Source of the DNA: Segatella cerevisiae
Lineage (GTDB): Bacteria > Bacteroidota > Bacteroidia > Bacteroidales > Bacteroidaceae
Direction of reading: 5' to 3'
Assembly (NCBI RefSeq): GCF_024054555.1
Contig: NZ_JAMXLY010000015.1
Coordinates: 1-64,000 of the forward strand
DNA: 64,000 nt
Below are positions 46,825 to 63,195 of the stretch, piece by piece. Every line of letters starts with the position of its first letter. Position 1 is the first letter of the stretch. A program made the translations under genes and the position numbers. The notes below the pieces were generated by a model. That model had not been told where the DNA came from and ran no database searches. It worked only from the letters and a program-made list of their open reading frames with translations.

Positions 46825-47084
46825 AATTGGGTTTATTTTTCTCTCCAAGGATTGGATTTGGATAATGGAAATAGAATCATTAACTGGAAGGATAAAGAAG
46901 AATTCTGGTTGAGTCATTTTATAAGTACAGATATCGAATAACACATAATTGAGTTATATTTTATCCACTCATTTGTCTTTGTTAAAATCATATAATCACT
47001 TGATTACATGCAACTTGCATTTTATTCGATACTCCTTATTTCCACTTTTTTTATCTTTATAAATAAAAATTACAGATTGTTTCC

Positions 47085-47092
47085 TATCTTTG
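47085..47092 (+). promoter_or_regulatory. Candidate -7 box of the SusC-SusD-GH16 locus
   Basis: TATCTTTG, about 85 bases before the SusC ATG. A correctly spaced TTTG is not present, as often at activator-dependent polysaccharide-utilisation promoters. Confidence 0.5.
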
Positions 47093-47177: not shown

Positions 47178-50100
47178 ATGAAACGGATAAGATTTATATT
47201 TTTCTTGTTAACTTTACTCACAAATACAATTGGCTTTGCACAGCAACGTACTTTTTCAGGTAGTGTTGTAGATAATCAGGGGAATCCAATTATTGGCGCT
47301 TCAGTTGTTCAAAAAGGAACATCGAAAGGCAGTGTTACGGATTTGGAAGGTCATTTTACTGTTTCGGTTGATATAGGTTCAACATTGGTCGTTTCTTATA
47401 TCGGTTACCAATCTAAGGAAGTGAAAGCTGCTCCGGGATTAAAAATAGTATTAAATGATAATTCTACTGCATTAAATGAAGTTGTAGTTATTGGTTATGG
47501 AGTACAGAAAAAGAGTGTTGTAACGGCTTCAATTGCCAAAGTTTCAGCAGAGGATCTGTTAGGGACAGATCCCGTGCGTGTGGATAATGCCCTGAAAGGC
47601 CTTGCTGCAGGAGTCACAGTTACTTCTTCATCTGGTCAACCAGGGGCAGCAGCAAAAATCAGTATTAGAGGTATTGGAACTATAAATGATAGCGATCCTC
47701 TCTACATTGTAGATGGTATGCCTATAGAAGGAGGTATTGATTATTTAAACCCTAGTGATATTCAAAGTATAGAGGTTCTGAAGGATGCTGCTTCGGGAGC
47801 TATTTATGGTACTCGAGCAGCCAATGGAGTTGTTCTCGTGACTACAAAAGGTGGACAGAGTGGAAAGCCTCGTGTCAATTATAATTTTTCTGCTGGCTGG
47901 CAGAGACCATGGAGGCATCGCGATGTCCTTAATGCAACAGAATATGCTGTAATGATGAATGAAGGACTGGTTAATGCAGGGCAGAGTCCTATTTATGCGG
48001 ATCCTTATTCATATGGAAAAGGAACGGATTGGCAGAAAGAAGTATTTAATAATGATGCACCAGTCATTAATCATGAAATAAATGTCAGTGGTGCTTCTGA
48101 TAGGGTCAATTATTACCTTTCGATGGGATATTATCATCAGGACGGTATTGTAGGAGGCAATTTTGATAGAAGCAATTACAGGAGACTGACACTTCGTAGT
48201 AATACGAAATACAATGTTTTTGATGTTATTAATGAACGCAACTGGCTGAATAAATTGGACATTACGGTTAATCTGTCATACGCTAGGGTACAAAGTAAGT
48301 CTATTGATGCAAATTCTCAATATGGTAGTGTCTTAGGAAGTGCACTTTATCTTTCTCCAATCTTGACTCCGACAGTCAGTGGAACTGACGCAGAAAATCA
48401 ATTGGAACAATATGGTGGCAAAGAATATGGTATTTACGACAAACATGGTAATCTATACACTGTCCCTGGTGCGTCTTACAATGAAATGAATAATCCGCTG
48501 GCTATGTTATCTCTTCCTGGTGATGGTAATTGGAGTCATAAGTTTGTGGCTAATTTTGCAGCAAATCTAAATCTCGGATATGGCTTTTCCTATCGTGTAT
48601 CTTATGGCGCTGATCTTTCTTTCTGGGGAGCAGATGGTTATACTCGGAAGTATTATCTTTCTGGCAATAATAAAGCTGATATTACCAATGCTCATTCTTA
48701 TAGTGATCGAGGAACAGTATGGCAGATCGAAAACGTTTTGACTTGGGATAGAAAATATGGTCGCCATAGTTTTAATGCTGTAGTTGGTCAAAGTGCTTTT
48801 AAAAATAGTGGATATAATCTCTCCGGGCAATTACAGAATTTAAAAGACTTGAATAAACCTTATATGAACAATACCAGTGCTCTACAAAGTGAAGGGCAAA
48901 TGTCAGCCAGTGGAGGACCTGCTTATGAGCATCGGTTATCTTCTTGCTTCTTTCGTGTCAGTTACAATTATGATGAGCGTTACATGACACAGGTCACAAT
49001 TCGACGTGATGGTAGTTCCAGATTTGGAGCGAATAACCGTTACGCTACTTTTCCGTCCTTTTCTTTGGGTTGGAATATTATCAATGAGCCTTATTTAGCG
49101 CCACCAGATTGGTTGAGTAATTTGAAACTTCGTTTTTCCTGGGGTAAGAATGGTAATGATAATATTGGTGATTTTACATATGCTGCTTGGACGGCATCAG
49201 GGTATAATGGCGTTTTCGGACGAAATGAAAATGAAATCAATGGCGTTCAGGCAGGCTCTTTGCCGAATCCTAATCTAAAATGGGAAGCGAGTAAGCAAAC
49301 CGATATTGGTCTGGATATGGGATTCCTCAGTAATGCCCTGACTTTTACAGTTGATTGGTATGTTAAAAAAACAAGTGGTATGATTATCTCAATGCCTATT
49401 CCTTCTTACGTGGGATCGGCTGCACCGCTAGGGAATGTTGGGGATATGGAAAATACAGGAGTTGAATTTGAAATGGGGTATAAGTTCCGTGTGTCTGATT
49501 TCAATTTTATGATGAAAGCAAATGCTAGTTATCTTCATAATAAACTTGTAAATTTAGGTAATTCTGCAGGTTCCTTGGAATTAGATGCCATGCAGAATAC
49601 TGGAACTATTACACGTGCTCAGAATGGGCTGCCTTTCCCGTATTTTTATGGATATAAGACCAATGGGATATTCCAAAATATGGAGGAGGTAAGAAATTAT
49701 AAAAATGCTAAGAATGAGATGATTCAGCCGAATGCAGTTCCAGGTGACGTTCGCTTTGTAGATGTTGATGGTGATGGTGCTATTACAGCTTCTGATCGGA
49801 CTAAGATCGGGAAGGGTATGCCTGATTGGACGTATGGGACAACTTTTAATGCATCTTGCCATAGTTTTGATTTCATGATGATGTGGCAGGGGACAATAGG
49901 CAATGATATTTATGATGCGACAAGACGCACGGATATCCGTCCTGCTAATTTGCCTTCTTATATGTTGAATCGTTGGACAGGTGAGGGTACAAGTAACAAA
50001 TATCCTCGATTTGTGGTGGGTGATGGAACTAACTGGCAAAGTTCAGACTTATATATCACGGATGGTTCTTATCTGAGATTAAAAAATATCGAGTTAGGTT

Positions 50101-50300
50101 ATACCCTTCCAAAAAACTTTACTCATAAGTTTATGTGTGATAGGCTTCGTGTTTTTATAGCAGCAGAAAACCTGATTACTTTTACAAAATATGCTGGTTA
50201 TGATCCTGAAATATCTTCTGGCGGTACCTCCTTGGGGGTCGATTATGGTGTTTATCCCCAAAGCCGTACTTTTTCTATTGGTCTAAATATCAGTTTTTAA
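47178..50300 (+). CDS. susC: SusC/RagA family TonB-linked outer-membrane transporter
   Basis: 1040 residues with a signal peptide ending in GFAQQ. The first mature domain is carboxypeptidase-regulatory-like (SGSVVDNQGNPIIGASVVQ). The TonB-box region ALNEVVVIGYGVQKKSVV follows, then a plug with PLYIVDGMPIEGG and SIEVLKDAASGAIYGTRAAN. A 22-strand barrel ends in SIGLNISF. There is no N-terminal STN signalling domain, so regulation is presumably by the DUF6377-type protein downstream. It imports oligosaccharides captured by the SusD partner. It is visibly more A+T-rich than the second SusC gene at 59612. Confidence 0.95.
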   Translation: MKRIRFIFFLLTLLTNTIGFAQQRTFSGSVVDNQGNPIIGASVVQKGTSKGSVTDLEGHFTVSVDIGSTLVVSYIGYQSKEVKAAPGLKIVLNDNSTALNEVVVIGYGVQKKSVVTASIAKVSAEDLLGTDPVRVDNALKGLAAGVTVTSSSGQPGAAAKISIRGIGTINDSDPLYIVDGMPIEGGIDYLNPSDIQSIEVLKDAASGAIYGTRAANGVVLVTTKGGQSGKPRVNYNFSAGWQRPWRHRDVLNATEYAVMMNEGLVNAGQSPIYADPYSYGKGTDWQKEVFNNDAPVINHEINVSGASDRVNYYLSMGYYHQDGIVGGNFDRSNYRRLTLRSNTKYNVFDVINERNWLNKLDITVNLSYARVQSKSIDANSQYGSVLGSALYLSPILTPTVSGTDAENQLEQYGGKEYGIYDKHGNLYTVPGASYNEMNNPLAMLSLPGDGNWSHKFVANFAANLNLGYGFSYRVSYGADLSFWGADGYTRKYYLSGNNKADITNAHSYSDRGTVWQIENVLTWDRKYGRHSFNAVVGQSAFKNSGYNLSGQLQNLKDLNKPYMNNTSALQSEGQMSASGGPAYEHRLSSCFFRVSYNYDERYMTQVTIRRDGSSRFGANNRYATFPSFSLGWNIINEPYLAPPDWLSNLKLRFSWGKNGNDNIGDFTYAAWTASGYNGVFGRNENEINGVQAGSLPNPNLKWEASKQTDIGLDMGFLSNALTFTVDWYVKKTSGMIISMPIPSYVGSAAPLGNVGDMENTGVEFEMGYKFRVSDFNFMMKANASYLHNKLVNLGNSAGSLELDAMQNTGTITRAQNGLPFPYFYGYKTNGIFQNMEEVRNYKNAKNEMIQPNAVPGDVRFVDVDGDGAITASDRTKIGKGMPDWTYGTTFNASCHSFDFMMMWQGTIGNDIYDATRRTDIRPANLPSYMLNRWTGEGTSNKYPRFVVGDGTNWQSSDLYITDGSYLRLKNIELGYTLPKNFTHKFMCDRLRVFIAAENLITFTKYAGYDPEISSGGTSLGVDYGVYPQSRTFSIGLNISF

Positions 50301-50326: not shown

Positions 50327-51850
50327 ATGAAACGAAATAAGATCATAGCAATGAGCTGCTTGTCAGTAACCTTTCTTGGACTGACTGGGTGTTCGGATAG
50401 TTTTTTAGATGTAACCCCGCCTGACAAAGCGACACTTCAGGAATATTATAGTACCTACGACCATTTGTCAGAAGCTTTAGTGGCAACATATAATCCCATG
50501 CGTGAATACGATTGGAATGGTAAGCAATATGCTCCTCTTAATCTATGTAGTGATGTAATGGGAGATGATATTTGGGTAGGCGGAGCTGGTATTTCCGATA
50601 ACCAATTTTTGCACAAAATGGCCAATTATTCATCTACAGCTAATTCCAGTGATGCTTTGACAGGGATATGGGATCAGAGTTATAAGGGAGTCAGTAATGC
50701 AAACAATATGATAACCTATATTAGCTGGAATCAATCTAATCTGTCTGCTGACTCTTTATCCGAATATACTGCGGAGGCCAAAGTGTTAAGAGCTTTTTAT
50801 TATTGCCAACTGTGGAAATTTTACGGTAATATTCCTTTTTATATGACTAACCCCAATGCTCCATATCTTGTCGAACAAAAGTCTGCAAATGATGTTTATG
50901 CGGCTGTAATCAAAGACTTGGAGGAAGCAATTGATTCTAAAAAACTGCCGATGAAATGGGATGAAACACATCTCGGCAGGGTATCTCAGGCTATGGCATA
51001 TATGCTTTATGCAGAAATGGTTATGTATCAAAATGATGACAGCCGTTATGCCAAGGCCCTTGAATATATGCAGGAAATTATAAATAGTGGATTATATGCC
51101 TTGAATCCGAATTATTCAAATATTTTTGAAGAGAGTGGAGAATGGTCTTCAGAAAGTATTTTTGAGATTAACTATAAAGACGATAAGGCAGTTCGATCAT
51201 ATTCTAATGTAAATGCTGCTGGTGGTACGGTATTGCCTCGCCTAATTAGTCCTACGGATTGGAAAACTGGTCCAGAAGGTGTTGAAAACGGGTGGGGATT
51301 TGGCCCTGTTCCTGAGGAGACCTATAACAGATTTGCAAATGATGATAAGCGTCGTGATGTTACTTGCTTTGATGCTCGTCAAGGGTCCTATACCAAGCGT
51401 TATCAGGATACCGGATTCTTCCTGGGTAAATATATTGCCAAGACTGCTAACAATGCCAAACAGATTGCCGATGCAGACCTGAATTTCAATAATAATTTGC
51501 GTATCTATCGCTATGCAGAGACTTTGCTTAATGCAGCAGAATTATTGATTCGTACGAACGGTTCTACTGCTCAGGCTCAGGAATACTTGAACCAAGTGCA
51601 TCATAGGGCGGGACTAGTAGATAATAAGGCTGCTACTATTGACAATATTGTAGAAGAGCGTCATCTTGAATTTGTAGGTGAAGGTAAACGTTATTGGGAT
51701 TTGATTCGTACAGGAAAGGCTGCTTCTGTTCTTGTACCGGATACTTATGGCTATCGGACAAATTCTTGGAGTGAGAGTAAAAAATATCTGCCGATACCAC
51801 AGAGTGAGATTGATGCAGCTCAGAATACGTTAACTCAAAATAAATATTAA
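50327..51850 (+). CDS. susD: SusD/RagB family glycan-binding lipoprotein
   Basis: A 507-residue lipoprotein (lipobox LGLTGC). The start SDSFLDVTPPDKATLQEYY is the typical SusD N-terminus. TPR-like helices include AEAKVLRAFYYCQLWKFYGNIPF; the C-terminal signature is NIVEERHLEFVGEGKRYWDLIRTGKA. It forms the hinged lid on the SusC barrel and selects the glycan. It starts 26 bases after SusC. Confidence 0.95.
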   Translation: MKRNKIIAMSCLSVTFLGLTGCSDSFLDVTPPDKATLQEYYSTYDHLSEALVATYNPMREYDWNGKQYAPLNLCSDVMGDDIWVGGAGISDNQFLHKMANYSSTANSSDALTGIWDQSYKGVSNANNMITYISWNQSNLSADSLSEYTAEAKVLRAFYYCQLWKFYGNIPFYMTNPNAPYLVEQKSANDVYAAVIKDLEEAIDSKKLPMKWDETHLGRVSQAMAYMLYAEMVMYQNDDSRYAKALEYMQEIINSGLYALNPNYSNIFEESGEWSSESIFEINYKDDKAVRSYSNVNAAGGTVLPRLISPTDWKTGPEGVENGWGFGPVPEETYNRFANDDKRRDVTCFDARQGSYTKRYQDTGFFLGKYIAKTANNAKQIADADLNFNNNLRIYRYAETLLNAAELLIRTNGSTAQAQEYLNQVHHRAGLVDNKAATIDNIVEERHLEFVGEGKRYWDLIRTGKAASVLVPDTYGYRTNSWSESKKYLPIPQSEIDAAQNTLTQNKY

Positions 51851-51863
51851 AGCGTATATTTTT

Positions 51864-53741
51864 ATGAAGAAATTCTATTTATATATTAGTGCAAGTTTAA
51901 TATTCGCTGGAGCATTGGTATCTTGCTCTCCTGAATCTTATGATGGTTTGGACGAAAATGGACTACCTTTAGCTGAGGATGCCCAGGTGAAAATAAGTGT
52001 AGCAGACTCAACGAATAATGTAACTTTTCAAATGGAAGGTAATGGGATCTATCCAATATGGTATATTCCTGTAGATGGAAAAGAAGTCACAAAAAATCCT
52101 GTTTATTCGACTTTGAATCCTTTGAATAAGATTTGGTCTAATGCTGGTGATTATCTGATTTATTATCGTGTGGGTAATCATAACGGTATGTCACAAGGGA
52201 TGGGAAAAGCATCCTTTCATATTCAGAATACTCTGACAGATTATGACAATTTGAAGAGTATGTTGGCAGCAGGTACTTGGCGGGTAGCTTCTACTGAGGC
52301 AGGGCATTTGGCTTATGGTCCTTCTGGGACTGACGGCACATCTTTATACAGTGCTTCTCCTGGTGAAAAAAGCGATAAGGGGATATATGATGACCGGATT
52401 ACGTTTTCAAAGGATGGGATTTATAATTATGACCCTGGAGTAGGAGGAACAGTTTATGTAAATAAGAGTTGTTCACTTTTTCCAGAGTATCATCAAAGTG
52501 AGGACTATATGGTACCGGTGGAAAAACAGAAGACTACCTATACTTTAAGTACCGAAGGGAATGACGTCTTTATGACCATGCCAGCAGGTACACTTTTCCC
52601 TTATATTCCAGCCGATGATGCTTATAAGGGAGATCTGAAATTACGTATAGAGAGTTTGCTTGGAACCAAAATGGTTTTAATATGGGATGATGGAAATATA
52701 GCTTGGCATTATATTTTAACTTGTTCTGATGAAGGCTTCCAAGGCTATAATGCTCTAAGCGATTGTAATCTGTTTAAGAATAGTAAATTCACAAATACTT
52801 ATTATTATGCTCCTGGATGGTCCCAGATACAAGATCCGAAAATGGAATCGAACGGGAATGCTTATACTGTTACTTTGTCAGAAGCGACAACGGATCAATG
52901 GCAGGCTCAGATGTTCTTTCATACGGATATGACTACTAATGTTGCTAACCATTATGATTTCTCTGCAAAATTATTATCAACAAAAGATCATGACAATGTA
53001 ACGGTTAAACTCTTTAAGTCTGGAGATAACGACACCTATTATTTTTTGGATAATATTAAACTTAAGGCTTTTGTGCCATATATATTCTATAAAAGTGATA
53101 TGCCTGGTCTAGATATGTCTCATGTGGATCTTGTACTTGATTTTGGAGGGAATCAGGCCGGTACCAAAGTGACAATATCAGACATAGATCTTCAGGAGCA
53201 TGCTTGTGACGGAATTGTGGCTCCTCAGGAAGATCAGGATAAAACAGTCTATACTTATGATTCTCCTATGAATATTTGGAAAATGAATGTGGATGATAAA
53301 GGCACTAGTGGATTTTCAACGTATTTCTATTATGCTCCAGGATGGACTCAAATTGCTGATCCCGAGTTGATGGTTGACAAGGGAACATATACAATCAACC
53401 TGTCTGAGGCAACCTCAGAACAATGGCAGGCACAGGTTCATCTTATTACGACTATTCCAGGCGATGCGGATACGAATTACGATTTCTCATGTAAGTTGTT
53501 ACCGACAAAGGACATTAAAGGTGTAACAGTAAAATTGACGGATACTGCTAGTGATGATAATTTCTATTTCCAGAAAAGAGTCGATTTGTTAGCTGGTCAG
53601 GAATATACTTTGAAAGTCCCTGCCGTAGTTTTGCCTAATGGCGCTGCTAAAGCCTTGAAATTGGTATTTGATTTTGGTGGCAACCCTGCTGGTGAACAGG
53701 TGAAAGTCTATAATATAGTTTTTCAGAAATCGGCAAAGTGA
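51864..53741 (+). CDS. Surface glycan-binding lipoprotein with two CBM-like repeats
   Basis: 625 residues, lipobox ALVSC. The N-terminal region (about 25-120) is an Ig/PKD-like domain and about 120-300 is a second module (TWRVASTEAGHLAYGP). Two related carbohydrate-binding-like repeats follow: residues about 310-447 (YYYAPGWSQIQDPKMESN) and 483-625 (YYAPGWTQIADPELM). Both share the segments LSEAT.(D/E)QWQAQ, YDFS(A/C)KLL and LVLDFGGN / LVFDFGGN. The copies look like CBM4/9-fold modules in beta-glucan loci. Position after SusD fits a SusE/F or SGBP role. Confidence 0.82.
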   Translation: MKKFYLYISASLIFAGALVSCSPESYDGLDENGLPLAEDAQVKISVADSTNNVTFQMEGNGIYPIWYIPVDGKEVTKNPVYSTLNPLNKIWSNAGDYLIYYRVGNHNGMSQGMGKASFHIQNTLTDYDNLKSMLAAGTWRVASTEAGHLAYGPSGTDGTSLYSASPGEKSDKGIYDDRITFSKDGIYNYDPGVGGTVYVNKSCSLFPEYHQSEDYMVPVEKQKTTYTLSTEGNDVFMTMPAGTLFPYIPADDAYKGDLKLRIESLLGTKMVLIWDDGNIAWHYILTCSDEGFQGYNALSDCNLFKNSKFTNTYYYAPGWSQIQDPKMESNGNAYTVTLSEATTDQWQAQMFFHTDMTTNVANHYDFSAKLLSTKDHDNVTVKLFKSGDNDTYYFLDNIKLKAFVPYIFYKSDMPGLDMSHVDLVLDFGGNQAGTKVTISDIDLQEHACDGIVAPQEDQDKTVYTYDSPMNIWKMNVDDKGTSGFSTYFYYAPGWTQIADPELMVDKGTYTINLSEATSEQWQAQVHLITTIPGDADTNYDFSCKLLPTKDIKGVTVKLTDTASDDNFYFQKRVDLLAGQEYTLKVPAVVLPNGAAKALKLVFDFGGNPAGEQVKVYNIVFQKSAK

Positions 53742-53829
53742 CTAAGACTAGAAGTCATGTCAAGTTCCAAGGTTGCTCTTGAATGACCTAAAAATAAAGA
53801 TGATAAACCTAATTTTATCGGAAACAATA

Positions 53830-54918
53830 ATGAAAAAGATAATGATTTTTAGCATGCTCTTAATCTCAGCACTCGGATTCACGAGTTGCAGTAATAGTGA
53901 CGAGGATACCAAATATGCGTCTCCGACCGAGGATGTTTCTTTGACGCAAACCTCCTTCTCAGTTGATACGGCAGCACAGACTATTCGAGTCGGAATAAAG
54001 ACCAGTCATGACTTCGTAGCTTATACTAATGATTCTTGGTTGACGGTCACTCCTGGTAATAGCATTTCACGGGATACAACCCTTCTTATTCAAGTGTTAG
54101 CTAATAAGTCTCCATTAGAGCGAAGAGGAACTGTGATAGTTTGGTGTGGAGGCACGCGTGATAGTATTAAAATTCTTCAGTCTGCTGCTTTGGCTTCTGA
54201 CATCCAATCTCCATTGCCGGGTTACTCTCTAGCTTGGAATGATGAGTTTGATGGTTCTAAGTTAGGGAATGACTGGTCTTATGAAGTACAGGGTGCAGGT
54301 TGGGTAAATAATGAACTTCAAAACTATGTACAGGAAGATCAGGTGGCACAGGTTTCAGACGGAAAATTGAAGATAAATCTGGTAAATGATAACGGTACCA
54401 TAAAAAGTGCTCGTCTTTATGCCCGTAGGAATACAGGTTGGAAATATGGCTACATAGAAGCTCGTATCAAGTTGCCTAAAGGCAAGGGCACTTGGCCTGC
54501 GTTTTGGATGATGCCGGTTAATAATAAGACCTGGCCTGATGATGGAGAGATAGATATAATGGAAGAAGTTGGATATGATCCAAATGTGGTTGTCTCAACA
54601 ATCCATTGCAAGAAATATAATAATGGAGGAACAGCTGTTGAAAGCGCCCGTCAAACAGTTTCTACAGCGCAGAGTGATTTCCATATTTATGGTCTTGAAT
54701 GGACTTCTGACCATTTGACGTTCTATGTGGACCATACAGAATTATTGACGTATAAAAATGATGGAAGTGGTAAGGATGCTTGGCCTTTTGACAATCCTTT
54801 TTATCTGATTTTAAATCTGGCTTGGGGAGGTAGTTGGGGAGGTCAGCAGGGAGTGGATCCAACTATTTTACCTACTACTATGGAAGTGGATTACATCAGA
54901 GTATTTCAAAAGAAATAA
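53830..54918 (+). CDS. BACON-GH16 endo-beta-glucanase lipoprotein
   Basis: About 362 residues from ATG 53830; an upstream frame start at 53773 lacks a signal peptide. The lipobox is ALGFTSC. A BACON domain (about 35-125; FVAYTNDSWLTVTPG, KILQSA) precedes a GH16 domain starting YSLAWNDEFDGSKLGNDW. The catalytic motif is GEIDIMEEVGYDP with Glu240 (nucleophile), Asp242 and Glu245 (acid/base). The insertion Met in EIDIME is typical for laminarinase-type GH16. Trp-rich WGGSWGGQQG near the end lines the cleft. Predicted to cut beta-1,3- or mixed beta-1,3/1,4-glucan at the cell surface. Substrate is inferred, not proven. Confidence 0.92.
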   Translation: MKKIMIFSMLLISALGFTSCSNSDEDTKYASPTEDVSLTQTSFSVDTAAQTIRVGIKTSHDFVAYTNDSWLTVTPGNSISRDTTLLIQVLANKSPLERRGTVIVWCGGTRDSIKILQSAALASDIQSPLPGYSLAWNDEFDGSKLGNDWSYEVQGAGWVNNELQNYVQEDQVAQVSDGKLKINLVNDNGTIKSARLYARRNTGWKYGYIEARIKLPKGKGTWPAFWMMPVNNKTWPDDGEIDIMEEVGYDPNVVVSTIHCKKYNNGGTAVESARQTVSTAQSDFHIYGLEWTSDHLTFYVDHTELLTYKNDGSGKDAWPFDNPFYLILNLAWGGSWGGQQGVDPTILPTTMEVDYIRVFQKK

Positions 54919-54955
54919 TATGAAATAGAAATAATTGTATGACCGTTTGACAGTC

Positions 54956-54999
54956 AAGGGGACAAATTTTCTTAAAGAAGATTTTGTCCCCTTATCTTT
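54956..54999 (+). terminator. Terminator after the GH16 gene
   Basis: AAGGGGACAAA (54956-54966) pairs with TTTGTCCCCTT (54983-54993), followed by a T-rich stretch. The TTTG of the right arm (54983-54986) is also the -33 box of the next promoter. Confidence 0.82.
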
Positions 55000-55013
55000 T
55001 TATTGTACTTTTG
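54983..55013 (+). promoter_or_regulatory. Promoter of the DUF6377-type regulator, overlapping a terminator
   Basis: TACTTTTG (55006-55013) lies 19 bases after TTTG (54983-54986), which is part of the GH16 terminator stem. It supports ATG 55097 as the regulator start. Confidence 0.7.
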
Positions 55014-55096
55014 CATTAGATAATACCATTGATTTGTCAGTTTATGTTGTTTTGCTAGAGAGGCTTGGTATAAATGGCTTCAAAAGGTACTCGGAT

Positions 55097-56767
55097 ATGA
55101 AGCATCTTCATGTTAAGATAATGCTATTTCTGATTTTTCTGCTCTTCCCGCTATTGAGTTGTGCCAAGAAAATAAATTTGGACCCTATGTACAAAGGTCT
55201 GGATAATGCTATTGCACATATAAACTATTATGTTTCTATCCGACAGAAACGTATAAAAAAGCTCAATGGTCGACTGCAGAAAGCGCAAAGTTTATCAGAA
55301 CGTCTTCTTATACATAGGGATTTGGCATATGAATATATTCCTTTTATCAATGATTCTGCGATTTTCCATCTTAATCAGTGTGTAAATTTGGCGTTAGCTA
55401 TGGGGCATAGAAATCAGGCCGAAGAATATAGATCTTTGATTTCTTTGCAGTGTTCCAAGACTGGAATGTATCAAGAGGCATTTAATGTCCTTGACAGTGT
55501 GCGAACAGAATATTTGACTCGTAAAGGACGCGGCATCTATTATTGGGCATACTATAATGTATATAATGAATTAAGCTATTATGCCCAGTTAGCAACTTTT
55601 CGGGCATTGTATGCCCAAAAAGCGAAATATTTTCAGAATCTGATGTTTCAGTATATATTGCCGTATTCAGACCCTTATTATCAGATAAAGGAATTGAATT
55701 TGATGAATGCGCATCAACTAAAACGTTCTATGGCATTAAATACAGCTTGGTTAGGACAAGTAAAAAAGGGTTCACATCGTTACGCTTTAGTGGCGCTCTA
55801 TCGCTATCTTGAATATAAAGCTCAAAAGGATACGCTACAGATGATGTATTGGTTGACCCAATCAGCTTTATCAGATGTCCGTAATGGAGTCATGGATCAA
55901 GGTTCCATGTGGGAGATTGCTAATCAGATGATGGTTCAAGGCGAGGTTGACCGGTCTTATCGTTATATTAGTTTCGCAAGTAGTTGTGCCGCTAAATTCG
56001 GTTCAAGACAACGTAATTGGCAGATTTCACCTTTGCTGACTTCTGTCGCTAATAATTATAAACTATTAATAGAACGCAGAACTTACCAATTATTTTGGTT
56101 GATAGTTATGATTAGTATTTTAGCTGTTTTATTATTACTTTCTCTTTTCTTTGTTAACCGCCAGCGTAAGAGGCTCTCTCTCGCCCAAAGTAATCTTCGT
56201 GATATAAATGGACAACTATCTACCTTAAATCTTGAATTAACGAAAACGAATACCAAGTTGTCCGTGCTTAATCAGAAATTAACTGATAGTAGTAAAGTGA
56301 AGGAAGAATATATAGGCCGTTTCCAGAGTATGTGTTCGGAATATATTGAAAAAATGGATAAGTTCAGGAAGCATGTCAATCGTGGTCTTAGAAATCGTCA
56401 GATACCTGAACTCTTAGAAGAGACTCGTTCTATAGAATGGAAAGAGGAAGAACTAAAAGAACTATACTCGAATTTTGATACTTCCTTTTTTCGCTTGTTC
56501 CCAAATTTCATAGAGGAATTCAATGCATTGCTTCGTCCTGAAAGTCGTATTATATTAGCAGATCCTTCAAGATTAAATACCCCACTTCGTATATTTGCTC
56601 TTATTCGTCTCGGCATTGAGGACAGTAGTAAAATCGCTGAATTTCTGAACTATTCTGTGAATACGATCTATAATTATCGTGCTCGTGTTAAAAATGGAGC
56701 TATAAGTGATCGTGAGAATTTTGAGAGGCATGTTAAGGAAATAGGTCTTCCGAAGCAAATCGGATGA
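55097..56767 (+). CDS. SusR/DUF6377-type membrane transcriptional regulator
   Basis: About 556 residues from ATG 55097, chosen because the promoter lies at 54983-55013 and the signal sequence starts MKHLHVKIMLFLIFLLFPLLSC. The periplasmic N-terminal part (to about 320) is alpha-helical and TPR-like. A membrane helix follows (LFWLIVMISILAVLLLLSLF), then a coiled coil (INGQLSTLNLELTKTNTKL) and a cytoplasmic C-terminus with a helix-turn-helix, FALIRLGIEDSSKIAEFLNY then SVNTIYNYRARVKN. This is the architecture of SusR-like DUF6377 proteins, which sense glycan fragments in the periplasm and activate a neighbouring susCD operon. No kinase or receiver domain is present. Confidence 0.85.
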   Translation: MKHLHVKIMLFLIFLLFPLLSCAKKINLDPMYKGLDNAIAHINYYVSIRQKRIKKLNGRLQKAQSLSERLLIHRDLAYEYIPFINDSAIFHLNQCVNLALAMGHRNQAEEYRSLISLQCSKTGMYQEAFNVLDSVRTEYLTRKGRGIYYWAYYNVYNELSYYAQLATFRALYAQKAKYFQNLMFQYILPYSDPYYQIKELNLMNAHQLKRSMALNTAWLGQVKKGSHRYALVALYRYLEYKAQKDTLQMMYWLTQSALSDVRNGVMDQGSMWEIANQMMVQGEVDRSYRYISFASSCAAKFGSRQRNWQISPLLTSVANNYKLLIERRTYQLFWLIVMISILAVLLLLSLFFVNRQRKRLSLAQSNLRDINGQLSTLNLELTKTNTKLSVLNQKLTDSSKVKEEYIGRFQSMCSEYIEKMDKFRKHVNRGLRNRQIPELLEETRSIEWKEEELKELYSNFDTSFFRLFPNFIEEFNALLRPESRIILADPSRLNTPLRIFALIRLGIEDSSKIAEFLNYSVNTIYNYRARVKNGAISDRENFERHVKEIGLPKQIG

Positions 56768-56789: not shown

Positions 56790-58943
56790 ATGAAAAAACT
56801 AATAGGATTTATTGTAATGTGTCTTTTTCCAGTTGTGGCCTTCGCTAATCCGATCACCGGACTTTTGGAGCGGATAGATAAAGGTGCATCAAAAAAGTTT
56901 GTCATCGAAATCAAGAAGGATGGACTTGAAGATTACTTTGAACTCAGTCAGTCCGGACAGAAGATAAAAGTCTGCGGCAATAATTATATCTGTGTGGCTA
57001 CAGGCATCAACTGGTACCTGAAATACTATGCCGGCATACACCTCTCATGGAACGGGATGAAAGCTAAATTGCCTCGGATTCTTCCTCCTGTCAAACAACC
57101 TGAACGACACGAGACAACTCTGAAAGAACGCTATTATTTGAATTATTGTACTTTCTCTTATACGATGGCTTTCTGGGACTGGAACAGGTGGCAACAGGAG
57201 ATTGACTGGATGGCTTTGCATGGCATCAATATGCCTTTGGATATTGTGGGCGAGGAGTGTGTCTGGTATAATCTCCTCCATCGATTGGGGTATACTAAGG
57301 CAGAAATCAATAGTTTTATTGCCGGTCCTGCTTTTGTGGCATGGTGGGCAATGGGGAATCTGGAAGGTTGGGGAGGTCCCAATCCTGATTCATGGTATGT
57401 TTTCCGACTGTCTTTGGGGAAGAAGATTTTGGATCGGATGAAGGCGTATGGCATGCGCCCTGTATTCCCAGGTTATGCAGGTATGGTCCCCCATAATGCA
57501 GGGAAGAAATTGCATCTCGATATTGCTGAACTTCCTCTTTGGTGCGGCTATCACCGTCCTTCTGTCTTGCAACCGACAGACCGGAGCTTTCAGAAGATAG
57601 CATCCATGTATTATCAAGAGCAAGAAAAACTGTTCGGGAAGGCGGATTTCTATTCTATGGATCCTTTTCACGAATCCGGGCAGACCGGTTCTATGGATCT
57701 CGCTTCAGCAGGTAAGGCGATCATGGCTGCAATGAAGAAGGTTAACCCGAAAGCTGTTTGGGTAGCTCAAGGCTGGCAGGAAAACCCTCGTGAGGCAATG
57801 ATGAAAGATCTGAAGCCCGGAGATTTTCTCGTCCTTGACCTGGAAAGTGAGAAGTTGTCAGGATGGTATCCTGGAAAGTACCGCAAGAGCGGTTTCGGAC
57901 AGCATGACTGGCTATTTTGCATGTTGCTCAATTTTGGCGGACGTGTAGGCTTGTATGGCAGGATGGATGAATTGCTGGATCATTTCTATTTGGCGAAGAC
58001 CCATCCGAGTGCTGCTCATCTGAAGGGTATAGGACTTACCCCTGAAGGAATAGAGAATAATCCGGTCATGTATGAACTTATGACCGAACTGCCTTGGCGG
58101 AGTGAGAAATTTGATAAGATATCGTGGGTTAATGATTATGTTTTTGCCCGTTATGGCGTTAGGGATAGAACGATTCAGAAAGCTTGGAAACTGTTGGCTG
58201 ATGGGATTTACAATTGTCCAGCTTCAAGTGACCAGGAAGGGCCTCACGAGTCCATATTCTGCAGTCTGCCTTCACTGAACAGTTTTCAGGTTTCCAGTTG
58301 GAGTAGGATGCAGAACTATTATGATCCTGCAAGTACAGAGGAAGCAGCCCGATTGATGTTGAGTGTGGCAGATAAGTATAAGGGAAATAACAACTTCGAA
58401 TATGACTTGGTGGATATTGTCCGGCAAGCCCTGGCAGATCATGCAAGAATTGTATATAACCGAACAGTGGCCGATTTCAAGAGTTTCGACAGGAAGAGTT
58501 TTAATCAGGATTCCCGTCAATTCTTGAATCTGTTGTTGCTGCAAGACAGTTTGTTGGGGACCCGCAGAGAATTCAGGGTAGGGACGTGGATTCAGTCTGC
58601 CCGGAAGTTGGGCGCTACTCCAGAGGAGAAGGATCTCTACGAATGGAATGCCAGGGTCCAGATCATAATATGGGGGAATAGGACTGCAGCGATTGATGGC
58701 GGTCTGAGAGAATATGCGCATAAGGAATGGAATGGTGTCCTTCGCGATTTCTATTATCCCCGGTGGAAGGCTTATTTGAGAATGTTGGGAAATGTAATGG
58801 ATGGAAAACCAATGGGAAATCCGGATTATTATGCGATGGCTGAACCTTGGGTAAAAGCTCACAACACATATGCGTCAACAGTTGTAGGAAGTCCCGTGGA
58901 TGTTGCAAAAGGTGTATTTGTAAAAGCCTTTGGGTCTTATTGA
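56790..58943 (+). CDS. Alpha-N-acetylglucosaminidase (GH89)
   Basis: 717 residues with a signal peptide ending in VAFANP. The N-terminal small domain is followed by the catalytic (beta/alpha)8 domain: RYYLNYCTFSYTMAFWDWNR, HGINMPLDIVGEECVWYNLL, AWWAMGNLEGWGGPNPDSWY. By comparison with NAGLU, Glu295 in SMDPFHESGQTG is the likely acid/base and Glu419 in LTPEGIENNPVMYELM the nucleophile. The all-helical C-terminal domain is intact. The enzyme removes terminal alpha-linked GlcNAc, as found on mucin O-glycans and heparan sulfate. It lies 22 bases after the regulator gene on the same strand, though its substrate does not match that of GH16. Confidence 0.93.
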   Translation: MKKLIGFIVMCLFPVVAFANPITGLLERIDKGASKKFVIEIKKDGLEDYFELSQSGQKIKVCGNNYICVATGINWYLKYYAGIHLSWNGMKAKLPRILPPVKQPERHETTLKERYYLNYCTFSYTMAFWDWNRWQQEIDWMALHGINMPLDIVGEECVWYNLLHRLGYTKAEINSFIAGPAFVAWWAMGNLEGWGGPNPDSWYVFRLSLGKKILDRMKAYGMRPVFPGYAGMVPHNAGKKLHLDIAELPLWCGYHRPSVLQPTDRSFQKIASMYYQEQEKLFGKADFYSMDPFHESGQTGSMDLASAGKAIMAAMKKVNPKAVWVAQGWQENPREAMMKDLKPGDFLVLDLESEKLSGWYPGKYRKSGFGQHDWLFCMLLNFGGRVGLYGRMDELLDHFYLAKTHPSAAHLKGIGLTPEGIENNPVMYELMTELPWRSEKFDKISWVNDYVFARYGVRDRTIQKAWKLLADGIYNCPASSDQEGPHESIFCSLPSLNSFQVSSWSRMQNYYDPASTEEAARLMLSVADKYKGNNNFEYDLVDIVRQALADHARIVYNRTVADFKSFDRKSFNQDSRQFLNLLLLQDSLLGTRREFRVGTWIQSARKLGATPEEKDLYEWNARVQIIIWGNRTAAIDGGLREYAHKEWNGVLRDFYYPRWKAYLRMLGNVMDGKPMGNPDYYAMAEPWVKAHNTYASTVVGSPVDVAKGVFVKAFGSY

Positions 58944-59611: not shown

Positions 59612-60574
59612 ATGATGTACTTTTTTAGAGAATGTAAACGAAATTTACTCGTAATTTTATGTTTATGTTTCGTTTCTGCTTATTCTTTTGCGCAGACCAG
59701 TGATAAGCGTATTTCACTGCAATGCAAGAATGAAAGTTTATCCACCGTATTGGAGAAAATAGAAGGGTTATCGGATTTCTATAAGATTCAGTTTGCCCAA
59801 ACTGATGTTGCTCCATATACCATTAGTGCAGAGATTCATGATAAGACTGTTCCTGAGGCTCTGTCTCAGATTTTGGACGACTTGCCTTTGGAGTTTTCTA
59901 TCGATAAACAGACCATACAGATTAGCAAAACATCATCTGAAACTCTTGATCATACGATATGTGGAAAGGTCGTTGATGAAAATGGAGACCCGCTGCCCGG
60001 CGTCCTGATCAGGATAGGAGGGAACATCATGAGCACCCAGACAGATGACATGGGCAACTTTTTATTGAAGACTTCAGACAGTAAGAAGACCTATAAGGCT
60101 GTCCTTTCTTTTATCGGGAAAAGGAAAATGACGCGGATCCTCAAGGTAGGCAAAAAGCAGGTTATTACAATGGAGGATGACGTGAACACCATCCCTGAAG
60201 TTGTGCTGACCGGTTATCAGACGATAGACAAGCGGCTGATGTCAAGTGCCACGACTACCGTCAAGATGGATGACATCAAAATCCCTAATGTCAATTCCTT
60301 GGACAAGATGCTTCAGGGTGCCATTCCTGGCGTGATGGTTCAGAATGTTTCCGGTTCACCTAATGCAACTCCTAAGATCAGAGTCAGAGGAACATCTACG
60401 ATATTCGGCAATGCTTCCCCATTATGGGTCGTTGATGGTGTGATTCATGATGACCCGGTGAATTTCTCGAACAATGTGCTGAATGATATTATTGCGGGTT
60501 CAGGATCTGATATGTCAGACCAAGTGAATCTGAATGCGTCCAGGAGTCTTTTGGGAATGCTATCTCTGGCGTGA
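59612..60574 (+). pseudogene. 5' part of frameshifted SusC gene (signal peptide, STN, plug start)
   Basis: 320 codons. The signal peptide ends in AYSFAQ. An STN domain (about 34-105; ISLQCKNESLSTVLEKIEGL) precedes a carboxypeptidase-regulatory-like domain (GKVVDENGDPLPGVLIRIGG) and the plug start (PEVVLTGYQTIDKRLM, PLWVVDGVIHDDP). The frame then ends abruptly after [14 protein letters not shown]. In this family that spot reads roughly [16 protein letters not shown]. Adding one A in GGGAATG at 60553-60559 restores exactly that and joins the next frame. The STN domain would allow signalling through an anti-sigma factor, but none is in the window. Confidence 0.88.
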
Positions 60575-63195
60575 ATCCTAATGATATTGAAACGATCACT
60601 TTCTTGAAAGATGCCTCTGCCACTGCCATCTACGGTACGCAGGCTGCCAATGGCGTAATCGTGATTACGACGAAGAAAGGAAAGATGGGAAAACCTTCAG
60701 TCAACTTCTCTTCTTCCATCGGTTTTACTTCACGTCCTGATTACTCACAGTTCAATTTGATGAATTCCAAACAGAGGATTCAAGTTTCCAAGGAAGTTGT
60801 ACAGAATGGTTATCTGTACAGCAGTGTACCTTATGACACCGGATATGAGGGCGCACTCTTTGATCTATATGATAAGAAGATCACATTGGATCAGTTTAAT
60901 GATGAGGTCGCCAAATATGAGACGATGAATACAGACTGGCTGAAACTGTTATGCCAGAATGCCCTGAATCAGGATTACAGTGCCAGTATTTCCGGTGGCA
61001 GCCAGAATATCAGATATTATAATTCATTGGGCTATACCAACAGTAAGGGAACGACCAAAGGGGATAACTCCACGAGGTATACACTGACCAGTAATTTGGA
61101 TGCCTCACTCAGCAATTCTTTGAAGATTTCGACAAAACTGAATTTCTCCAATCAGGACAATGATGGTTTCTATACCACCAACCCTTATACTTATGCATTG
61201 CAGACTTCACGTACTGTTTCTCCTGACGAGTACTATACGACACAGGTCAATCAGATCGCAGGTCTCTCCGGCAATTACCCGTTGAAGTATAATATCTTCA
61301 ATGAACTCCAGCATACGGGCAACAAAGCTAAGGTACGGGAATTCAATGGAAGTATAGGTCTTAACTATAATATCATGACCGGCTTGAAATTGGAGACCCT
61401 TGCGGCACTTGCCTATTCCAATTCCCTGAATTATCAGTGGGCTGATGAGCGTTCCTACTATATTGCCCAGATCAGAGGTTATGATTACGGCAGTGTTCCT
61501 GCAGGTGGTGAAGAAGAGAAATCAAGCAGACTGCCACATGGCGGTACCTTGAATTATAATGAGACCAACAATACCACCTACGATGGCAGAATACAATTGA
61601 GTTATTCTAAGATCTTCGGTAAAAAAGGTGAGCATGTGGTCAATGCAATGGGCGGTTACGAAATCCGTTCTGCCCAATATAGTGGATTCAACGATGTAGA
61701 GTGGGGCTATTTCCCTGATCGTGGGTTGAATATCAGCTATGAGTACGATACGGGGACTTCAGGCAGTGTCAATCCTTCTTCCAACTCGTCTTTGCAAAAG
61801 CATACCGCTGCAAGAACAGAGACACGGAATAATACAATATCCGGCTATGCCACATTAGTGTATGCTTATAAGAACCGCTACATTCTGAATGGCAATATCA
61901 GAGCTGATGCCTCCAACCGTTTCGGACAGTATACCAATCATAAGGTCTTGCCGGTATGGAGTGTGTCGGGAAGATGGAAAGTCAACGATGAGAAATGGCT
62001 GCGGAACTGGACATTCCTGAATGATCTGAGTTTGCGTGCATCCTATGGCTTGCAAGGGAATATTCCGACGAATGTAGGTCCGAATCTAATCGTCAAATAC
62101 ATTTCTCCGACAATCAACCGTTTCTCCGGCAATTACCAGTTGGGTATCAGTCGTTTGCCCTATCCTAATCTGAGATGGGAAAAAACGGCCAGCACTAACC
62201 TCGGTATGGATTTCTCCTTGTTGAACGGACGCATTGGAGGTACGATAGACTACTATCTGAGAAAAGGTAAGGATATCATCTTCAATCTGCCTGTGGCCAG
62301 TGAATATGGCACGACGACGACTTACCGCAATGGTGCGAATCTGAAGAATACTGGATTGGAGATCAGTATGGACTTTGTCGCCATTCGTTCAAAGGACCTG
62401 ACCTGGACCATTTCCCCGAATTATTCCAAGAACACGAATAATATCTCCAATACTTCTCAGCAGTCCTACACCTATTTGGACTACCTTGCCGGAAATGCCT
62501 ATAACAACGGCAGACCGGTAAATGCCGTTTACGCTTGGAAATTTACGGGACTGGACCACAATACAGGTTATGCGATGTTCGATAAATGTTCTACGACTCA
62601 AACTGATGTGACATTGAGTAAAGATCCTACGACGTATCTGAAATACTGTGGCAGCAGTGATCCGAAATTCAATGGAGGAATTTCTTCATCCTTACGCTTT
62701 AAAGCGTTTACGTTGATGGCCCAGTTTGCTTATTCCTTCGGCAGTGTCCGGAGATTGAACAATGTTTTTGACGGGACGATGACGATGCCGGAACCACAGA
62801 CCAACCTGATTACGGAGATGCTCGACAGGTGGAAGAAACCGGGTGATGAGGCGACGACCAATATCCCTGGCATCGTATTCAACGGAACCAACGGTTATAT
62901 GATCTACACGCCTGCAGGGTTGCTTAATTCTTATGATATGTATAACTATTCAGATCAGAGAGTTGTATCCGGCGATTTCTTCAGATGCAGGAATCTGACG
63001 CTCGCCTATACTTTCCCGCTTGAGGTCATCCGGAAATTGGGATTGACGGGATTGACTTGCTCGATCAATGTTTCCAACCCATTCACCATCTGCAGTTCCA
63101 AATTGCAAGGTCAGGATCCTGAAGTTGCTTCTACGGGTACGGTCGCATTGCCAATCGTCAAGACCTATTCTTTTTCAATAAATCTTAATCTTTAG
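60571..63195 (+). pseudogene. 3' part of frameshifted SusC gene (plug end and barrel)
   Basis: 874 codons in a different frame, beginning [21 protein letters not shown], which is the middle of a SusC plug. It goes on as a complete TonB-dependent barrel ending in YSFSINLNL. It has no signal peptide, so it cannot be a functional gene alone. The first available start is GTG 60571, overlapping the stop of the upstream part. Together the two parts give a normal-length SusC protein of about 1190 residues. The barrel shows no other damage, pointing to a recent mutation, phase variation or a base-call error. Confidence 0.88.

Follow-up and report, generated by a model that had tools for sequence, protein, structure and literature searches.

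A predicted transcription terminator hairpin and the predicted promoter of a SusR-like regulator gene share the bases TTTG in a 64,000-nucleotide (nt) stretch of Segatella cerevisiae DNA (contig NZ_JAMXLY010000015.1 of assembly GCF_024054555.1, positions 1-64,000, forward strand), referred to here as the window. The hairpin follows the GH16 gene that closes a SusC-SusD-GH16 operon, and the regulator lies directly downstream. This site is most likely an ordinary, compact arrangement in which expression of the regulator is kept separate from that of the operon; the reading as an insulating terminator followed by an independent regulator promoter, with the overlap as a result of compaction, was assigned a probability of about 0.7. 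The original prediction had described a terminator arm doubling as the -33 box, with TTTG at 54983-54986 placed in the stem exactly 19 bases before TACTTTTG at 55006. These coordinates were exact, and folding together with promoter-spacing statistics indicates that terminator and promoter are both likely real and overlap.

The hairpin consists of 17 pairs with one bulge and a 3-nt loop, and begins 37 nt past the GH16 stop codon. Folding of the 91-nt region gave a z-score of -4.46, with none of 200 shuffles folding as well, and the stem is directly followed by the tail ATCTTTTTA, containing 6 T among 9 bases. A stable hairpin downstream of a gene, followed directly by a T-tract, is expected of an intrinsic (Rho-independent) terminator, and the GC-rich base, the short loop and the position just after a stop codon were also as in this class. 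Unlike in a typical intrinsic terminator, the stem is bulged, its upper part is A/T-rich, ATC precedes the T run and a -33 box is located in the 3' arm. The hairpin was found using our own detector (at least 5 T of 9) and was omitted by a stock terminator scan, probably because of the bulge. Lacking an A-rich 5' side, the terminator probably acts in one direction, on the + strand only. A search with Rfam at gathering scores over positions 40000-64000 returned tRNA only.

For the promoter, the pattern TTTG-N18-21-TAnnTTTG had 7 matches in the window (1.24 expected); genome-wide there were 332, compared with 58 for its reversed form. In 864 kb of the S. cerevisiae genome containing 778 TAnnTTTG sites, TTTG was present in 24 cases at spacer 19 and in 45 at spacer 20, with 1-11 at each of the other spacers; the 69 sites at both spacers together compare with about 12 suggested by neighbouring spacers. 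Two relatives within the genus, with 400 kb analysed from each, gave counts at spacers 19/20 of 6/20 (genome G117, where spacer 12 forms a further, minor peak with 16) and 36/21 (genome G024). Because TTTG peaks at these two spacers in its own genome, the site, combining a TAnnTTTG -7 box with TTTG at the preferred spacing, looks like a genuine sigma-A-type promoter. Both boxes agree perfectly with the Bacteroidota sigma-A (sigma-ABfr) promoter TTTG-N19-TAnnTTTG; unlike in the usual promoter of this type, the -33 box, together with part of the spacer, doubles as terminator arm and T-tract. The promoter consensus is known from Bacteroides (PMC7366714) and the -7 box from Flavobacterium (PMC9723704). 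Four one-mismatch TAnnTTTG sites also occur from the GH16 stop to the regulator ATG, none of which has TTTG 17-22 nt before it.

Regulator homologues were located at E <= 1e-100 at 70 places, spread over 61 of the 200 genus genomes searched with the own genome among them, and 52 of these loci, including the window, were examined in a first set of 30 and a second set of 22. In ten loci (five per set), no codirectional open reading frame (ORF) with 150 or more codons had its end within 450 nt. The remaining 42 comprised 27 in which a carbohydrate enzyme precedes the regulator (GH3 or GH16, apart from one GH30 and one SASA esterase; representatives were assigned by Pfam and the rest by BLAST against these, and L246 and L252 were included following a family search) and 15 with other upstream genes. 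The latter include L056, with a sugar transporter upstream and a weak hairpin (-10.9), L254, with DUF5016/5121/5125 upstream, and five loci (L049, L054, L243, L250 and L251) whose upstream frames were not assigned to any family and are possibly not genes. Since the threshold of -8 kcal/mol used for genome-wide terminator detection also fires in 108/400 resampled gaps, hairpins in relatives were required to reach -14 kcal/mol and to carry a T-tail, which 14/800 resampled gaps, drawn for the first set only, also did. In that set, the gap reached 25 nt or more in 20 of the 30 loci, and 13 of these 20 contained a hairpin at or below -14 kcal/mol followed by T's. Among the 27 enzyme-upstream loci of both sets, a gap of 67-305 nt was kept in 26, TAnnTTTG occurred within the gap in 25 and a strong terminator-like hairpin in 20 (13/15 in the first set, 7/12 in the second); in 19 the hairpin was followed by a -7 box, with TTTG 18-21 nt before that box in 16 of the 19.

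Contact between the -33 zone and the hairpin was found in 5 of these 19 loci: the window (L001), L050, L053, L066 and L240. Among the other four, only L066 resembles the window in having TTTG within the 3' arm; the TTTG of L240 covers the loop plus the first arm base, that of L053 begins one base in from the end of the stem, and the zone of L050, which contains no TTTG, overlaps the stem end by two bases. The upstream gene of L240 is a GH16 gene like that of the window, and the other two loci with GH16 upstream, L051 and L237, showed no overlap. By eye the hairpin sequences of the overlap loci look unrelated, which suggests that the arrangement has more than one origin. A regulator match at E <= 1e-190 was absent from the other 397 of 398 genus genomes, and the intergenic region, used as a DNA query, gave matches in 16/200 genus genomes, own genome included, those in the others extending over 25-54 bases only. 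For lack of close relatives, conservation of the overlap, proposed earlier as a check, was judged as anatomy and not base by base; at that level the arm overlap recurs in L066.

The overlap is a minority arrangement, uncommon but not unique. The -33 box was located in a hairpin arm in 1/23 intergenic promoters in 464 kb of the S. cerevisiae genome, this being the present site, and in 1/17 in 400 kb of G117. Of 165 terminator calls made over 1.66 Mb of three genomes, 9 had a -7 box within 30 nt (3/76 in the own genome, present site included, 0/38 in G117 and 6/51 in G024), some of these calls not being terminators in view of the detector's firing rate at -8 kcal/mol. The -7 boxes behind terminator calls numbered 10 within 30 nt and 20 over the 130 nt that follow, a weak excess (binomial 0.04). 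As a separate observation made by eye, a similar hairpin, T-tract and TGTACTTTTGCA were seen in three genus genomes (L079, L080 and L081, around position 1501) ahead of what is apparently one and the same gene, the start of which reads like a response regulator; this is another terminator-like hairpin set against a promoter.

As read from the sequence, with termination, start site and constitutive expression as predicted properties, the hairpin would end the SusC-SusD-GH16 transcript by intrinsic termination, and a separate housekeeping (sigma-A type) promoter would drive transcription of the regulator and probably also of the downstream GH89 gene. The terminator would insulate the regulator from the inducible operon, keeping it low and steady instead of letting it enter a positive feedback loop. 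TTTG would be shared because the GH16 stop and the regulator ATG lie 178 nt apart and both signals are packed between them; a -33 box and spacer are expected to come readily from T-rich sequence such as the arm and tract. Expression of SusR-like regulators has been described as low and constitutive, without induction alongside their operons (PMC6874557), and susR mRNA as comparable across conditions, with changes of approximately 1.3- and 0.75-fold (PMC11633381). A constitutive regulator of this kind needs a terminator between operon and regulator, hence the reading of the site as a terminator plus an independent promoter. The recurrent gap, the hairpin-then-box order and the reports on SusR point to uncoupling, and the earlier proposal that operon and regulator levels are linked was left without support. 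A literature search on terminator/promoter overlap or insulation gave nothing on point, which does not prove absence from print.

Several observations weigh against insulation with an independent promoter. No hairpin at -14 kcal/mol was found in 7 of the 27 enzyme-upstream loci (L040, L062, L234, L235, L237, L252 and L246, the last having no gap to search); in L246 the regulator overlaps the SASA esterase gene in an operon-like manner, and in L047 the hairpin sits behind the -7 box. The regulator abuts the upstream gene at 1/27 enzyme-upstream loci versus 5/15 others (Fisher 0.016; 1/27 versus 5/10, 0.003, without the five loci lacking an assigned family), a contrast coming from the first set only (0/15 versus 5/10; second set 1/12 versus 0/5). 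Finally, the SusR identity derives from a family score only: NCBIfam NF058541 (SusR_regulator) matched residues 31-549 of 556 with 479.7 bits (E 1.5e-143), 0.3 bits below the curated cut-off of 480, and the protein is therefore called SusR-like. The nearly full-length match and the adjoining SusC/SusD operon are as for regulators of the SusR family such as that of the B. thetaiotaomicron Sus system; unlike there, the present regulator is placed after the last gene of the operon, and the probable substrate, judged from GH16, is beta-glucan and not starch.

Intrinsic terminators leak, and some operon transcripts might read through into the regulator and GH89 genes, giving positive feedback. Constitutive expression of, or positive feedback on, a SusR-like gene of B. 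thetaiotaomicron raised reporter output approximately three-fold (PMC6874557), and the overlap in L246 would suit such coupling; the strong hairpin and T-tract and the gap kept in 26 of the 27 loci nevertheless make read-through an unlikely account of the site. Coupling of the opposite sign, with polymerases that pause or terminate at 54994-55004 blocking the regulator promoter so that strong operon transcription lowers the regulator, is rather improbable. The predicted 3' ends do fall between the -33 and -7 boxes, inside the promoter spacer, and the five contact loci fit such occlusion, whereas the other 14 of the 19 have the -7 box 37-184 nt past the hairpin, the contact in L050 and L053 amounts to merely 1-2 nt, and the SusR levels reported in PMC11633381 and PMC6874557 are flat. 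That selection placed the terminator on the regulator promoter, occlusion being a built-in negative feedback evolved in more than one lineage of the genus, was considered very improbable. The TTTG could also be incidental, the promoter working from the -7 box or the regulator starting elsewhere; T-rich arms would hold TTTG easily, but its enrichment 19-20 nt before TAnnTTTG in the own genome renders a chance match quite improbable.

Coordinates of the site and the adjoining genes are collected in the table below. According to Pfam, the operon contains a SusC gene (47178-50300), a SusD gene (50327-51850) and, between SusD and GH16, a gene for a protein without family (51864-53741). The GH16 protein carries the motif GEIDIMEE, read from its sequence, and its start in the ORF list is a TTG, an ATG being located further inside; the assignment of beta-glucan as the probable substrate follows from this gene alone. 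The listed regulator ORF (54935-56767) extends back through the hairpin, and its start is likely the ATG at 55097, which gives a lipoprotein-like signal peptide with LLSC. Near the regulator C-terminus weak helix-turn-helix matches were obtained. A literature search retrieved no paper mentioning DUF6377, which leaves absence from print unproven. GH89 is probably on the same transcript as the regulator and driven by its promoter; an alpha-N-acetylglucosaminidase, it is an unlikely beta-glucan enzyme. For beta-glucan loci of Segatella copri, PMC11784079 gives hybrid two-component regulators as predicted, a different set-up. Comparison of the regions upstream of susC and the regulator yielded two common 9-mers only and no shared operator. 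Upstream of the susC -7 box TATCTTTG at 47085, a ten-base inverted repeat (TATCGAATAA / TTATTCGATA, 46932-47031, arms 80 nt apart) was observed, which is a possible regulator site.

Table. Features of the terminator/promoter site and its adjoining genes in the window.
Feature	Position	Strand	Basis
GH16 lipoprotein, last gene of SusC/SusD operon	53773..54918	+	PF00722 E 2.1e-27, BACON domain
Imperfect palindrome TGACCGTTTGACAGTCA, between GH16 stop and hairpin	54940..54956		sole copy of pattern in window
Predicted terminator hairpin	54956..54993	+	-20.3 kcal/mol; region z -4.46
-33 box TTTG within hairpin 3' arm	54983..54986	+	sequence, promoter pattern, fold
T-rich tract of terminator, within promoter spacer (54987-55005)	54994..55004	+	sequence
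-7 box TACTTTTG	55006..55013	+	sole perfect TAnnTTTG in GH16-stop-to-ATG gap
SusR-like regulator with DUF6377 domain	55097..56767	+	PF19904 E 6.7e-82
GH89 (NAGLU) gene	56790..58943	+	PF05089/PF12972/PF12971; 22 nt behind regulator

Within the regulator promoters of L066 and L068, a dispersed promoter repeat, TTTGCATTTCGCTC-N6-TCGTAnCTTTG, was found, which is more interesting than the terminator/promoter overlap itself. It occurred in 27 exact copies in 17/100 genus genomes (reversed control 0), with no exact copy in the window's own genome; all matches were of the same length with a fixed 19-nt spacer, though the searched gap allowed five lengths. The copies (L206-L232, genus relatives) precede many different genes and once form a tandem pair, 83 nt apart. 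They often have a purine-rich 5' partner that pairs with the TTTG-bearing arm, giving a hairpin across the -33 box; at least 11 of 15 pairs are formed in 16 of 25 distinct copies, and the pairing showed no covariation (286 paired cells versus 285.3 with arms dealt anew). Four loci gave no Rfam match at gathering scores. The repeat could be a mobile or amplified promoter; a literature search for it surfaced a paper on a miniature inverted-repeat transposable element (MITE) of Porphyromonas gingivalis (PMC4596501). Elsewhere in the window, at 59612-63195, two overlapping ORFs that are read in different frames seem to be parts of a single SusC-type receptor: STN, CarbopepD and the start of Plug are in the first, and the opening of the second weakly matches the end of Plug, suggestive of a frameshift or an assembly error.

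If occlusion were to operate, it would represent a simple, sequence-encoded feedback in glycan operons. If insulation by the terminator holds, it would explain how a regulator located at the 3' end of the operon that it presumably controls stays constitutive, and the site would mark where regulator levels could be re-wired.
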